Below are positions 33,291 to 37,254 of a DNA stretch of 37,254 nt, one piece after another. Each line of letters begins with the position of its first letter. Positions within the stretch are counted from its first letter, which is position 1. Source of the stretch: Holophagaceae bacterium (GTDB lineage Bacteria > Acidobacteriota > Holophagae > Holophagales > Holophagaceae). The notes beneath the pieces are model-generated. The model saw only the letters and a list, made by a program, of their open reading frames with translations, was not told the DNA's origin and ran no database searches. The stretch is from NCBI GenBank assembly GCA_025357545.1, contig JANXPB010000003.1:1-37254 (forward strand). The letters are read 5' to 3'. Made by a program: the position numbers and the translations under genes.

Positions 33291-34397
33291 CTAGTTGCTG
33301 AACAGGAAGTGCATCACATCGCCATCCTGAACGATGTACTCCTTGCCTTCGGTGCGCATCTTCCCGGCCTCCTTGGCGCCAGCCTCGCCCTTGTAGACGA
33401 TGAAATCCTCATAGGCCATGACCTGTGCGCGGATGAAGCCCTTCTCGAAATCCGTGTGGATGACGCCCGCGGCCTGGGGGGCCGTGTCGCCCACGTGGAT
33501 GGTCCAGGCGCGGACCTCCTTCACGCCGGCAGTGAAGTAGGTCTGCAAGCCCAGCAACCGGAAGGAGGCGTGGATGAGCACGTCCAGGCCCGGTTCCTTC
33601 AGGCCGGCCTCTTCCAGGAACATGGACCGCTCTTCGGGGGGGAGTTCCTGGATTTCCGCTTCCAGCTTGGAGCAGATGGGAACCACGGGACAACCCCGTT
33701 CAGCCGCCAGCCGGAGGAGGGTCGCGTAGTGCTGGTTGCCGGCCGGATCGCGGATGTCCATTTCGGCGATGTTGCCCACCAGCAGCACGGGTTTCAACGT
33801 GATCAAGCCATAGCTCTTGATGGCGAAGCGGTCCTCGGCGTTCAAGCCCACGGTACTGGCCCATTTGCCATCGTTGAGCGATGCGTAGACCTTTTCCAGG
33901 ATGGTCACCAGGTGGGCGGCTTCCTTATTAGCGCTCGATGACTTGGCGAGTTTGCGGTTGCGATCCAGGCCCTTTTCCACACCTTCGAGATCCTTGAGCA
34001 TCAGTTCTGTGTCGATGATGGCCAGGTCCCGCTCAGGATCGACGCTCCCTTCCACATGGGTGATGTCCCCGTCCTCGAAACAGCGCACCACCTGCACGAT
34101 GGCGTCCGTATCCCGGATGTTCGTCAGGAAGGCATTGCCCAGGCCCTCCCCCTTGGAAGCGCCCCGCACCAGCCCCGCGATATCCACGAATTCCTGGGAG
34201 GCGGGGAGGACACGTTGGGGCTTCACAATGGCCGCCAAGTGGGCCAAGCGAGGGTCTGGCACATCCACCACGCCGGTGTTCGGCTCGATGGTGCAGAAAG
34301 GGTAGTTGGCCGAGGCCGCCCCGGCACTGGTGAGCGCATTGAAGAGGGTAGACTTGCCCACGTTGGGCAGACCGACGATGCCGCATTGAACTGCCAT
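33291..34397 (-). CDS. ychF: Redox-regulated ATPase / ribosome-binding Obg-family protein YchF
   Basis: 368 residues, full length. YchF is a P-loop protein of the Obg group that prefers ATP and binds ribosomes. The P-loop is GLPNVGKST, the switch region [18 protein letters not shown], and G3 [17 protein letters not shown]; a TGS domain closes the protein ([35 protein letters not shown]). The ATG at 34397 gives the canonical [16 protein letters not shown] start; an in-frame ATG 18 bases earlier is less likely. The gene stands alone on the minus strand. Confidence 0.96.
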
Positions 34398-34603
34398 GAG
34401 GACCTCAAGAATCAAATTGGGGGTGGAACCAGGCCAAAGCTCCAGTGTCCCAAAGGTTCCGTCCCCTGCAAAGCAAGGATTCCTCCGAGATGGTCCGAAA
34501 ATATATTTTCTTCGATACCTTGCATGACAGGCATGGACGCCCTACGCTCCCCGGCATACCCGAATCGACTTGGGCACCCCACGGCAATCTTCAGGAGGCA
34601 GGC

Positions 34604-34837
34604 ATGATCGTCAAGGCGGAATGGCCGGGGTATGTGATGGACATCCTGGTCAAGCCCGGCCAGGAAGTGGAAGAAGAAGAGCCGTTGATGCTGCTCGAGG
34701 GCACGGATTCCGGCCACACGACCTTTTTCATCAACTCCCCTGAGGCTGGAAAAGTCCGGGAACTCCTCATAGAAGAAGGTGATTACGCCGCTGAGGATGA
34801 TGACTTGGTGGTATTGGGAGAGGTCGAGGTCGATTAG
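34604..34837 (+). CDS. Biotinyl-domain-like protein that has lost the biotin lysine
   Basis: 77 residues with the fold pattern of a biotin/lipoyl carrier: MIVKAEWPGYVMDILVKPGQ, then strands INSPEAGKVRELLIEEGD and DDLVVLGEVEVD. At the hairpin that normally carries ESMKM it has EGTDS (32-36), so the modified lysine is replaced by D35 and the domain cannot be biotinylated. The ATG at 34604 follows GGAGGCAGGC, the same ten bases that precede the intact biotinyl gene at 34942. Sequence outside the hairpin is clearly related to that gene, so the two are paralogues. The acidic surface (EVEEEEP; EDDD) is unusual. An in-frame start upstream at 34445 has no support. Confidence 0.75.
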   Translation: MIVKAEWPGYVMDILVKPGQEVEEEEPLMLLEGTDSGHTTFFINSPEAGKVRELLIEEGDYAAEDDDLVVLGEVEVD

Positions 34838-34941
34838 GGCGCCAAGACTTCTACTGGGCACCAGCCTTCAGGCATTCTGCCCAGGCTGGGAAGGCGTTTA
34901 TCGCCAGCCAAGCTACAATCACCACTCCAATGGAGGCAGGC

Positions 34942-35154
34942 ATGGCGGTGGTGCGCGCGGAAATGGCCGGGAAGGTGCTGGAGGTCCTGGTGTCCGACGG
35001 AGACACCGTCACCGAGGACCAGGACCTCATCATCATCGAGTCGATGAAGATGCAGATTCCTGTGGGCTCCCCCGCAGAGGGGACGGTGGTCAAAGTTTTC
35101 GTCGTGGCTGACCAGTTCCTGAATGAAGGCGATGCCATCGTTGAGCTGGGCTAG
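34942..35154 (+). CDS. Biotin/lipoyl attachment-domain protein (BLAP, YngHB-like)
   Basis: 70 residues, essentially one biotinyl domain: MAVVRAEMAGKVLEVLVSDG, then IIESMKMQIPVGSPA with the biotin-accepting K36, and a C-terminal strand FLNEGDAIVELG. Small stand-alone carriers like this (YngHB in Bacillus) lie next to a 3-methylglutaconyl-CoA hydratase, as here, and work with a biotin carboxylase in leucine breakdown. GGAGG lies 5 bases upstream of the ATG; a start 12 bases earlier would disrupt that. Its last 97 bp are repeated 171 bp further on. The biotin carboxylase and carboxyltransferase are not in the window. Confidence 0.85.
   Translation: MAVVRAEMAGKVLEVLVSDGDTVTEDQDLIIIESMKMQIPVGSPAEGTVVKVFVVADQFLNEGDAIVELG
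35049..35145 (+). repeat. 97-bp direct repeat, copy 1 (3' half of the biotinyl gene)
   Basis: Covers the codons from ESMKM to the end strand of the biotinyl protein. It matches 35220-35316 with one difference (A at 35123, C at 35294). Confidence 0.95.
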
Positions 35155-35172
35155 GGGGTGCTCGTGGGCAGA

Positions 35173-35324
35173 ATGATCAGTTCGGCGGCCTTGCGTATGA
35201 GCGCAGCGAATACCAAGAGGATGCAGATTCCTGTGGGCTCCCCCGCAGAGGGGACGGTGGTCAAAGTTTTCGTCGTGGCTGACCAGTTCCTGACTGAAGG
35301 CGATGCCATCGTTGAGATTTCCTG
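35173..35324 (+). pseudogene. Truncated second copy of the biotinyl domain
   Basis: An open frame of 50 codons from ATG 35173 (MISSAALRMSAANTKR) runs into a copy of the biotinyl C-terminal half (MQIPVGSPAEGTVVKV through EGDAIVEIS) and stops at 35324, one base before the hydratase ATG. The shift of 171 bp is a multiple of three, so the copy stays in frame. The N-terminal half of the domain and the SMK part of the biotin motif are missing, so it cannot carry biotin as a complete domain. It is probably the original 3' end, displaced by a tandem duplication, now a fragment. Whether it is translated is unknown. Confidence 0.65.
35220..35316 (+). repeat. 97-bp direct repeat, copy 2
   Basis: Copy of 35049-35145 with 96 of 97 bases identical, lying directly upstream of the enoyl-CoA hydratase gene. 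Between the copies are 74 unrelated bases (35146-35219). Confidence 0.95.
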
Positions 35325-35325
35325 A

Positions 35326-36114
35326 ATGGCGGAATTGCTTCTTGAACACCTCGGTGGGGATGACAGCGGCATCGTGCTGCTGGGCCTGGAACGTCCCGCG
35401 GCGAAGAATGCGCTCGGGCGGCAGCTGGTTTGGGAATTGGACGAGGGCTTGGCAGCCTTGGCTCGTGACCCGACTATTCGCGTAGTGATCCTCCACAGCC
35501 TGGTGCCGGGCGTGTTTTGCGCCGGGGCCGACCTCAAAGAGCGTGCGGGCATGGACTCTGCCGAGGCCACTGCCTTTGTGCAGCAGTTGAGGTTGGCCTT
35601 CACCGCCCTCGAGCGATTGCCGATGCCGACCGTGGCTGCGCTGGAAGGCGCGGCCCTGGGGGGCGGGTTGGAATTGGCTCTGGCCTGCGACCTGCGCGTC
35701 GTAGGCGCCGCCGCCAAACTGGGCCTTCCCGAAACCAGCCTGGCCATCATTCCCGGTGCGGGTGGAACCCAGCGCCTGCCCCGGCTCATTGGGCGCTCCA
35801 GGGCCAAGGAACTGATCTACACGGGCCGGCGCTTTGGTGCGGTGGAGGCCCTGGAATATGGCATCGCCGATCGCACCGCTGAAGTGGGCATGGCGCTGGA
35901 GATCGCCCTGGCTCTCGCCCGGGAGATCCTGCCGAACGGGCCCATCGCACTGAGAGCCGCCAAGGAGGCCATCGATCTCGGACTGGACCTGGACCGGGCT
36001 GGCGGGTTGCTCGTCGAGGAAGCCTGTTACGCCAAGGTCATCCCCACCCAAGACCGACTGGAAGGGCTCGCCGCCTTCAGGGAAAAACGCAAACCTCGAT
36101 ACCAAGGCCTGTGA
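35326..36114 (+). CDS. Enoyl-CoA hydratase, methylglutaconyl-CoA hydratase (AUH/YngF)-like
   Basis: 262 residues, crotonase fold. The oxyanion and active-site segments FCAGADLKERAGM, ALEGAALGGGLELALACDLR (E116) and LGLPETSLAIIPGAGGTQRLPR (E136) are intact. The C-terminal part (EEACYAKVIPTQDRLEGL, then AFREKRKPRY) matches human AUH closely by eye, which points to 3-methylglutaconyl-CoA hydration in leucine degradation rather than general beta-oxidation. Its neighbour upstream is a biotinyl carrier, as in Bacillus yngHB-yngF. The ATG lies one base after the stop of the duplicated biotinyl fragment. Its TGA overlaps the transporter's start (TGATG). Confidence 0.88.
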   Translation: MAELLLEHLGGDDSGIVLLGLERPAAKNALGRQLVWELDEGLAALARDPTIRVVILHSLVPGVFCAGADLKERAGMDSAEATAFVQQLRLAFTALERLPMPTVAALEGAALGGGLELALACDLRVVGAAAKLGLPETSLAIIPGAGGTQRLPRLIGRSRAKELIYTGRRFGAVEALEYGIADRTAEVGMALEIALALAREILPNGPIALRAAKEAIDLGLDLDRAGGLLVEEACYAKVIPTQDRLEGLAAFREKRKPRYQGL

Positions 36115-37109
36115 TGGGCGCGGGGCATCACCATCCCGAGGATGGCCACACAACCGTGGCTCGGCTGGCCTTCAGCGTCGGGATCTTCGGCCTGAATTTT
36201 TTTGTGCAGGGGCTCGGAGGGCTCTGGACCGGCTCCTTGGGCCTCGTCAGCGATTCCTTGGAGAACCTCAATGATTCGGTGGTGAACCTGCTGGCCATGG
36301 GCGCCATCAGCGTGGCCAACAAGCGCGAGCCCTGCGACCGCTACGCCTATGGATGGCACCGGCTCGAGGTCTTCCATACGCTGCTGGGCGTGGGACTGCT
36401 GGTGGGACTGGCGATTGGGGTGCTCTGGGAAGCCTGGCAGCGAATCCACCATCCGGTCCCCATCCAGATCGGCTGGGCCATCGCCTTCTCGGCCCTGGGC
36501 CTGCTGTTGAACCTGGCCGCCACCTGGGTGCTGCTGCCCCCCAAGGGCGCGCGCCTGGAGGGCGACCTGAATCTGCGGGGCGCCTACCTCCACGCCCTGG
36601 GGGACAGCCTTGCCAATGTGGCGGTGATGCTGTCCATGGTGGCCATCCGCTTCACGGGCTGGCGCTGGATCGATCCGCTGCTTGCGGTGCTCATCGTTCT
36701 GGTCATCCTGCGGGGAGCATTCCTGTTGCTGCGGGACGCTTCGGCCATCCTCATGCACAGGGCGGCCTTTGATCACGAAGCGGCGAAGCGGGACCTGCTG
36801 AAATTGCCCGGCGTCCTAGGCGTCGAGGATCTGCGCAGCTGGAAGGTGTGCAGCCACCTCACCATCGCCACGGCCCACATCCTGGTTGATGCCGAGAGGC
36901 TGGATGAGACTGAACATTTTCTGGAGGACATCGAGCACGTGCTGTCGGACCACTACGGTGTCCGCCACCTGACGGTGCATTTCGAGACTCCGACCATGGC
37001 GGAACGCCACCACCACCGTTTCATCCACCAGCACGAAGCCGCCGGCCTCGAAGATCCCGTGCATCTCGGCGAGCACCGGCACGAGCACGGGCATACGCAT
37101 CCACATTAG
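36114..37109 (+). CDS. Cation diffusion facilitator (CDF) family metal transporter
   Basis: 331 residues with six membrane segments and a cytoplasmic C-terminal domain, plus His-rich ends (GHHHPEDGHTT at the start, HRHEHGHTHPH at the end). CDF proteins export Zn, Co, Fe or Mn by proton exchange. In TM2 the usual H-x3-D is E50-x3-D54 (SDSLENLNDS); in TM5 the H160-x3-D164 pair (LHALGDS) is kept. The changed TM2 residue makes the ion uncertain. The start codon overlaps the hydratase stop by one base; the pairing with leucine catabolism looks incidental. Confidence 0.9.
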   Translation: MGAGHHHPEDGHTTVARLAFSVGIFGLNFFVQGLGGLWTGSLGLVSDSLENLNDSVVNLLAMGAISVANKREPCDRYAYGWHRLEVFHTLLGVGLLVGLAIGVLWEAWQRIHHPVPIQIGWAIAFSALGLLLNLAATWVLLPPKGARLEGDLNLRGAYLHALGDSLANVAVMLSMVAIRFTGWRWIDPLLAVLIVLVILRGAFLLLRDASAILMHRAAFDHEAAKRDLLKLPGVLGVEDLRSWKVCSHLTIATAHILVDAERLDETEHFLEDIEHVLSDHYGVRHLTVHFETPTMAERHHHRFIHQHEAAGLEDPVHLGEHRHEHGHTHPH

Positions 37110-37190
37110 GGATGACCGTTCCTCCGAGTCAGCGGTCAAACCAACTTAGCGCCCGATTCATACCAAGGTGCATTCAATAAAATAGACCCA

Positions 37191-37231
37191 CCAAGACGCC
37201 AAGACACCGAGGGCACCAAGAGCACCAAGAG
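37191..37231 (+). repeat. Short imperfect tandem repeat (core CCAAGA)
   Basis: Five units of 8-9 bases, such as CCAAGACG, CCAAGACA, CCGAGGGCA, CCAAGAGCA, in the non-coding DNA after the transporter gene. The window ends shortly after, so the full extent is not seen. Confidence 0.7.
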
Positions 37232-37254
37232 CTACCTCATGTGCCAGCTTCGCG

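Follow-up and report, generated by a model that had tools for sequence, protein, structure and literature searches.

What does a row of three related biotinyl segments in one locus represent: a single recent series of duplications, or pieces with separate histories? The locus lies near the end of the stretch of DNA analysed here (the window, 37,254 nucleotides), which belongs to a draft assembly of 3.27 Mb in 239 contigs from a member of the family Holophagaceae. The first-pass annotation had described a domain without the biotin lysine, an intact biotinyl carrier, and a truncated copy of the carrier's second half, and all three are present (34604-34837, 34942-35154, and 35217-35316). The features of the locus are as follows.

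33291..34415, minus strand: YchF-family GTPase, the divergent neighbour upstream
34594..34603, plus strand: ribosome-binding site and leader of the lysine-less gene, GGAGGCAGGC, read from the sequence; relatives have GGAGGC-like leaders
34604..34837, plus strand: lysine-less protein with a predicted biotinyl/lipoyl fold, 77 aa, very acidic; tip LEGTDSGHTTFF where carriers have ESMKM
34932..34941, plus strand: ribosome-binding site and leader of the carrier gene, read from the sequence
34942..35154, plus strand: intact 70-aa biotin carboxyl carrier protein, with its biotin lysine at K36 (codon 35047-35049)
35046..35145, plus strand: direct repeat X1, the 3' half of the carrier gene, from repeat comparison
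35155..35216, plus strand: spacer containing the hairpin element, with counterparts in Geothrix species and congener G001
35191..35218, plus strand: hairpin element variant TTGCGTATGAGCGCAGCGAATACCAAGA; outer pairs CTTG/CAAG and GTAT/ATAC, inner arms GAGC/GCGA imperfect
35217..35316, plus strand: direct repeat X2, a truncated copy of the carrier's second half, without the biotin lysine
35326..36114, plus strand: enoyl-CoA hydratase family protein; nearest curated model PRK07657, 299 bits against a cut-off of 363
36111..37109, plus strand: CDF-family cation efflux protein

The window ends (37160-37254) in the first part of a dispersed repeat (ATACCAAG.TGCATTCAATAAAATAGA..CCACCAAGAC...) with many copies in its own genome. 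Complete copies of this repeat carry two inverted T-type hairpins about 221 bp apart, and the contig ends within the repeat.

The three segments are real, yet they are not a single series of duplications. The first and second share 31% protein identity over 71 aa (E 2e-9), while 98 of 100 bases are identical between the third (35217-35316) and the corresponding part of the carrier gene (35046-35145), which implies very different divergence times. The single visible series of duplication and divergence proposed in the first-pass annotation was not upheld: the first copy predates the split of 11 genera, and the third is a tandem duplication associated with a hairpin, of a type that has hit many unrelated genes. 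Between the first two segments only 35% of codon third positions are identical, and 21 of the 60 bases preceding the two starts match. The similarity of these segments thus appears real but old.

The common leader at both starts, on which the first-pass annotation had also remarked, was confirmed as an exact 13-mer, GGAGGCAGGCATG, with only two exact copies in the window. In relatives the leader consists of GGAGGC followed by a few variable bases, and it looks like a ribosome-binding-site context rather than a duplication footprint. We rejected the 13-mer as proof of a recent duplication, given the variable leaders of relatives and the 21/60 match upstream.

The 77-aa open reading frame matches PF00364 (Biotin_lipoyl) with 35 bits against a cut-off of 22.1. 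AlphaFold modelling from a 34-sequence alignment gave a pLDDT of 82.8, and from the single sequence a pLDDT of 51. The best Foldseek match was 5gu8, a BCCP (TM 0.85 by query and 0.92 by target); the search also found 2ejf_C, a carrier crystallised with biotin ligase. By profile match and model, segment 34604-34837 is predicted to adopt the biotinyl/lipoyl fold. The attachment lysine of the MKM-type hairpin is absent from all 20 aligned family members, and the tip is three residues longer. In ten genera the tip is conserved as approximately E-x-T-D-x-x-[HR]-T-x-F-[YF]; the motif is not universal, since the reduced-genome genus g2 differs, with ENKSMEGIPE.

Across 396 genomes of the phylum, lysine-less members were recovered at E 1e-32 or better and everything else at about 1e-14 or worse, the strongest non-member being the local carrier of one g2 genome (1e-15). 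We considered whether apparent relatives elsewhere also lack the lysine and rejected this: the 16 loci read, which were the best-matching ones outside or beside the family set, are all ordinary carriers, with an MKM- or MKL-type motif and a shorter tip. The lysine-less proteins form one clade (92/92) in a 52-domain tree, and the join of this clade with the local carrier is weak (63/94).

Protein searches found the lysine-less gene in 72 of 77 family genomes, including all 48 of high quality and all 11 genera. It is present at approximately one copy per genome, and no internal stops were seen in the family genomes. Its median dN/dS is 0.14 (window's genus, Geothrix, g5, and g6), similar to the 0.12 of the carrier, and the protein is 91-93% identical to those of congeners while synonymous divergence exceeds 1. 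The gene is an ancient single-copy paralogue of biotin carriers, distributed family-wide and kept by purifying selection, and its biotin lysine had already been lost before the 11 genera diverged. The suggestion of the first-pass annotation that this is a maintained paralogue with an open frame is supported by these data. The same annotation had reckoned with decay should relatives lack the gene or carry it broken; when we looked, all 48 high-quality genomes carried it intact. The loss of the catalytic residue is what a pseudogene-like leftover of duplication might show, but with universal presence, open frames, and a dN/dS near 0.14 we count decay as already refuted and give it practically no weight.

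The neighbouring carrier (34942-35154) scores 60 bits against PF00364 and has the ESMKM motif with the attachment lysine K36. Its best NCBIfam model is PRK08225 (YngHB type), at 77 bits under a cut-off of 95. From its sequence it is an ordinary YngHB-like BCCP adjoining a YngF-like hydratase: carrier and hydratase are each nearest to the corresponding models (YngHB/PRK08225 and YngF/PRK07657), although both score under the curated cut-offs. The pairing agrees with the leucine-degradation set of Bacillus.

At E 1e-12 the carrier was found in 32 of 48 high-quality genomes, in practice in genera g1, g2, g3 (Geothrix), g5, and g6. At least 16 of the 48, several of them Geothrix, are without it, and all of these keep the lysine-less gene. 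In Geothrix genomes G043, G048, and G050 the CDF exporter gene directly follows the lysine-less gene, carrier and hydratase being gone, and in G021, G044, G045, G046, G053, and G013 at most a degenerate carrier remains. The lysine-less gene also lies directly before CDF in some g7 and g9 genomes. In some genomes of g4, g7, g10, and g11 (L043, L049, L058, and L059) an amidohydrolase (dihydroorotase-like) gene adjoins it, as does polynucleotide phosphorylase in some of those genomes. The ancestral order was likely lysine-less gene, carrier, hydratase, and CDF, from which carrier and hydratase have dropped out repeatedly. The reduced genus g2 (L040-L042 in genomes G005-G007, ~1.2 Mb each) retains the whole cluster of lysine-less gene, carrier, hydratase, and CDF.

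What, then, might a carrier domain without its lysine do? Plant BADC proteins offer an analogue: they are 25-30% identical to BCCP, lack the biotinylation motif, and, as part of acetyl-CoA carboxylase, have been assigned the role of inhibitor as well as that of assembly 'glue' (PMC11926652). The lysine-less protein resembles them as a BCCP relative that has lost the biotinylation motif and is under selection. The plant proteins differ in being longer and plastid-located (the BADC3 construct spans residues 55-263) and part of acetyl-CoA carboxylase (PMC11926652), whereas the lysine-less protein is bacterial, a free-standing domain of 77 aa with a longer, altered tip, and known from sequence and model; it may work like BADC and is not classed as a member of that group, and we assume that the two are of independent origin. 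By this analogy, the lysine-less protein would keep the barrel-sandwich fold and, through its altered but conserved tip and acidic surface, bind to sites on proteins that are normally taken by a biotinyl domain. It could dock on biotin carboxylase, a carrier, or biotin ligase, aiding assembly or limiting activity, and so serve a biotin-dependent carboxylase as a non-catalytic subunit with a part in assembly or regulation. We tentatively favour such a non-biotinylated, BADC-like partnership, at somewhat less than an even chance; the protein may be a partner of a biotin enzyme other than the one served by the adjacent carrier, or of biotin ligase. Biotin carboxylase was present in all 16 genomes checked, which the idea needs and which does not prove it: universal conservation and a biotin carboxylase everywhere fit many other roles equally well.

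The first-pass annotation had proposed a competitor or partner of the adjacent carrier, and such a dedicated protein could occupy the carrier's carboxylase site or its ligase and thereby tune leucine catabolism. The genes do adjoin in g1, g2, g3, g5, and g6, and the folds are similar. However, the lysine-less gene persists in every one of the 16 high-quality genomes in which the carrier is missing at E 1e-12, and Geothrix species have lost carrier and hydratase at exactly this site or have only a degenerate carrier. A role that requires the neighbouring carrier is unlikely for this reason, and the partner carboxylase would not be the one that the neighbouring carrier serves; we disfavour the adjacent-carrier role and consider it quite improbable. 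Somewhat less improbable, and still doubtful, is a role outside biotin enzymes, for instance with the CDF cation exporter, in which the acidic surface would bind metal or protein. The CDF gene is the most persistent neighbour, being retained beside the lysine-less gene in g7 and g9 genomes and in Geothrix strains without carrier and hydratase, but in the g4, g7, g10, and g11 genomes described above its place is taken by the amidohydrolase-like gene and sometimes polynucleotide phosphorylase, and we know of no barrel-sandwich partner of CDF proteins. Lysine-less carriers are already known in plants; for a bacterial, family-wide one we found no description in the open-access papers searched.

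The third segment has a different history. Alone, it scores under the PF00364 cut-off, and inspection of its sequence showed that it lacks an evident ribosome-binding site and the biotin lysine and covers half a fold; it probably has no function of its own. The segment is a tandem duplicate of the carrier gene's 3' end, which was copied along with one member of a dispersed family of hairpins. The window's hairpin variant has no strong fold on its own, and a DNA BLAST of the spacer against its own genome returned only itself and chance matches; the family was found only by a structured pattern. None of 4227 Rfam models scored above its gathering score in 34400-35500, and PADLOC gave no match. 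Diverged forms of the spacer occupy the same position in Geothrix species and in congener G001, where the contig breaks off within the spacer. Two other candidates were dropped: a diversity-generating retroelement, which would call for more than the two base differences seen in the repeat, and translational bypassing, since skipping between the copies would merely restore the same protein.

The family hairpin is built from GYCTCG with a C or T bulge after it, then GTAT and four bases of any kind, a GNA loop, four more such bases, and finally ATAC and CGAGARG. The structured pattern matched in 66 of 77 family genomes, and a reversed-pattern control gave 0. In 119 of 149 copies the inner arms pair without a mismatch, and they do so in many different sequences, a pattern of strong covariation. 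Among the matches listed from a public genome set, all belonged to Holophagaceae or unnamed Acidobacteria save one Rhizobiales-labelled contig (L208), probably a misplaced contig in a metagenome bin. The reduced genomes G005-G007, which also have a different tip sequence, contain no hairpin match.

The hairpin recurrently accompanies duplication. Of 151 distinct hairpins, 60 directly precede a second copy of the sequence upstream of them, compared with 0 of 110 control positions reaching threshold; for the other 91 no duplication was detectable. By ungapped matching the duplicates are 18 to 138 bases long, and in 43 of the 60 the start-to-start period is 103-107 bp. Automatic grouping gave 15 target clusters, the largest of which merges several genes, so at least 14 unrelated targets are represented at 103-107 bp. 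The carrier gene lies off this ~105 rule, with a period of 170-171 bp (239 and 140 in two species). Geothrix-type genomes (L100, L122, L215, and L251) have a second biotinyl gene that also carries a hairpin-linked 3' duplication, with a period of 157 or 228, and the duplications at both genes begin at the MKMQ codons. Hairpins with a bulged C are duplicated in 56 of 104 cases and those with a bulged T in 4 of 47; the latter include a composite repeat in the window's genome. Where duplicates are coding, the copies differ mainly at third positions (e.g. 0,0,8 and 0,1,7), a bias which means that copies have been exchanged or converted, or come from separately selected gene ends.

Two further loci deserve description. 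In several genera an uppS-mglA-like intergenic region (L095, L101, L106, L117, L153, and L272; genes named by reading the sequence) contains the hairpin along with a gene start that has been duplicated; the hairpin arms vary between genomes yet stay complementary. At L105 one gene has its C-terminal end in three versions, arranged in a tandem row with hairpins between them, and recombination could swap the protein end.

At the carrier gene, the same architecture occurs in the isolates G. fermentans, G. fuzhouensis, and G. campi, which already makes an assembly error unlikely. Nine Geothrix species bearing the fragment are scattered on the locus tree, and their sisters are mostly without it. 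Because the spacer is common to different genera, repeated loss of an old duplication fits this pattern as well as repeated gain; the shared spacer argues for a common origin followed by repeated loss through recombination between the direct repeats, leaving an intact gene. The two copies in the window differ at 1 of 93 positions, while the congeners differ at 15-18, so the window's copies were duplicated or made alike recently. In mechanistic terms, the hairpin may drive duplication, either by insertion with a target duplication of roughly fixed length or by template switching, and the copies would afterwards be lost or homogenised by recombination between direct repeats.

Other origins of the fragment were weighed against this hairpin-linked duplication. 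Any recent tandem duplication would be expected to leave a direct repeat of 98% identity, and an ordinary one, unconnected with the hairpin, would explain that much; however, the copies are separated by a member of the hairpin family, shared with other genera, and 60 of 151 hairpins elsewhere show the same type of duplication at a regular period, which together make this explanation very unlikely. Rather more room, within what is still an unlikely reading, is left for a displaced native gene end, in which a diverged 3' end came in with the hairpin by recombination from another strain. For Geothrix fermentans (G011), comparison with two close relatives gives 1/93 differences in the downstream copy and 10/93 in the upstream copy, and the third-position bias between copies points the same way. 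The nearest-neighbour comparison of foreign and native gene ends is suggestive in this one species, but the asymmetry is inconsistent in others, where results are mixed, and the near-identity of the window's own copies (1/93) speaks against it. Returning to the hairpin-linked duplication of the carrier end, its combination with a carboxylase-partner paralogue is an explanation that we regard as evenly balanced; this stands above our view of the lysine-less part alone because the fragment part is firmer. A more specific version, in which the hairpin is a ~35-nt mobile element of a new kind that makes a near-constant ~70-bp target duplication (hence the 103-107 bp period) through an as yet undescribed mover enzyme and the lysine-less protein is a family-wide bacterial counterpart of plant BADC, is a speculative possibility that we consider rather doubtful. 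A target duplication of ~70 bp is far longer than those usual for transposons.

A search for a mover enzyme across the 77 genomes, in which a Y1 transposase was tested, found none: PF01797 occurs in 12 of 77, and the Y1 (RAYT) transposase is unsupported as mover. Like REP/REPIN sequences, the hairpin is a short dispersed palindrome in several copies, and REP palindromes are sometimes reiterated in tandem with flanking DNA (PMC3733652, PMC3116915). The hairpin differs from them in having few copies per genome, a Y1 transposase in only those 12 of 77 genomes, and no GTAG or CGTC tag at the foot of the stem, where GYCTCG / CGAGARG is conserved instead, as well as in its near-constant period of 103-107 bp, made up of the hairpin and ~70 bp of host sequence, at unrelated genes. 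It shares with a MITE flanked by target-site duplications (PMC10969869) the arrangement of a small non-coding repeat between direct repeats. In contrast to a MITE, its repeated flank measures from tens of bases to more than 100 bp and is mostly gene sequence, and it has neither terminal inverted repeats beyond itself nor a known parent transposon. In the open-access papers searched we found no description of a hairpin with a near-fixed duplication period.

These findings bear on the biology of the family in two ways. The hairpin family provides a concrete, countable case of short tandem duplications of gene ends whose period is near-fixed. It accounts for 3' gene fragments in these genomes that might otherwise be taken for gene families or regulators, and the fixed period suggests a mechanism that can be measured. 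If the proposed role of the lysine-less protein is true, bacteria and plants would have arrived at the same solution, in which a dead carrier assists biotin enzymes or holds them back, and the culturable Geothrix species would allow this to be tested.
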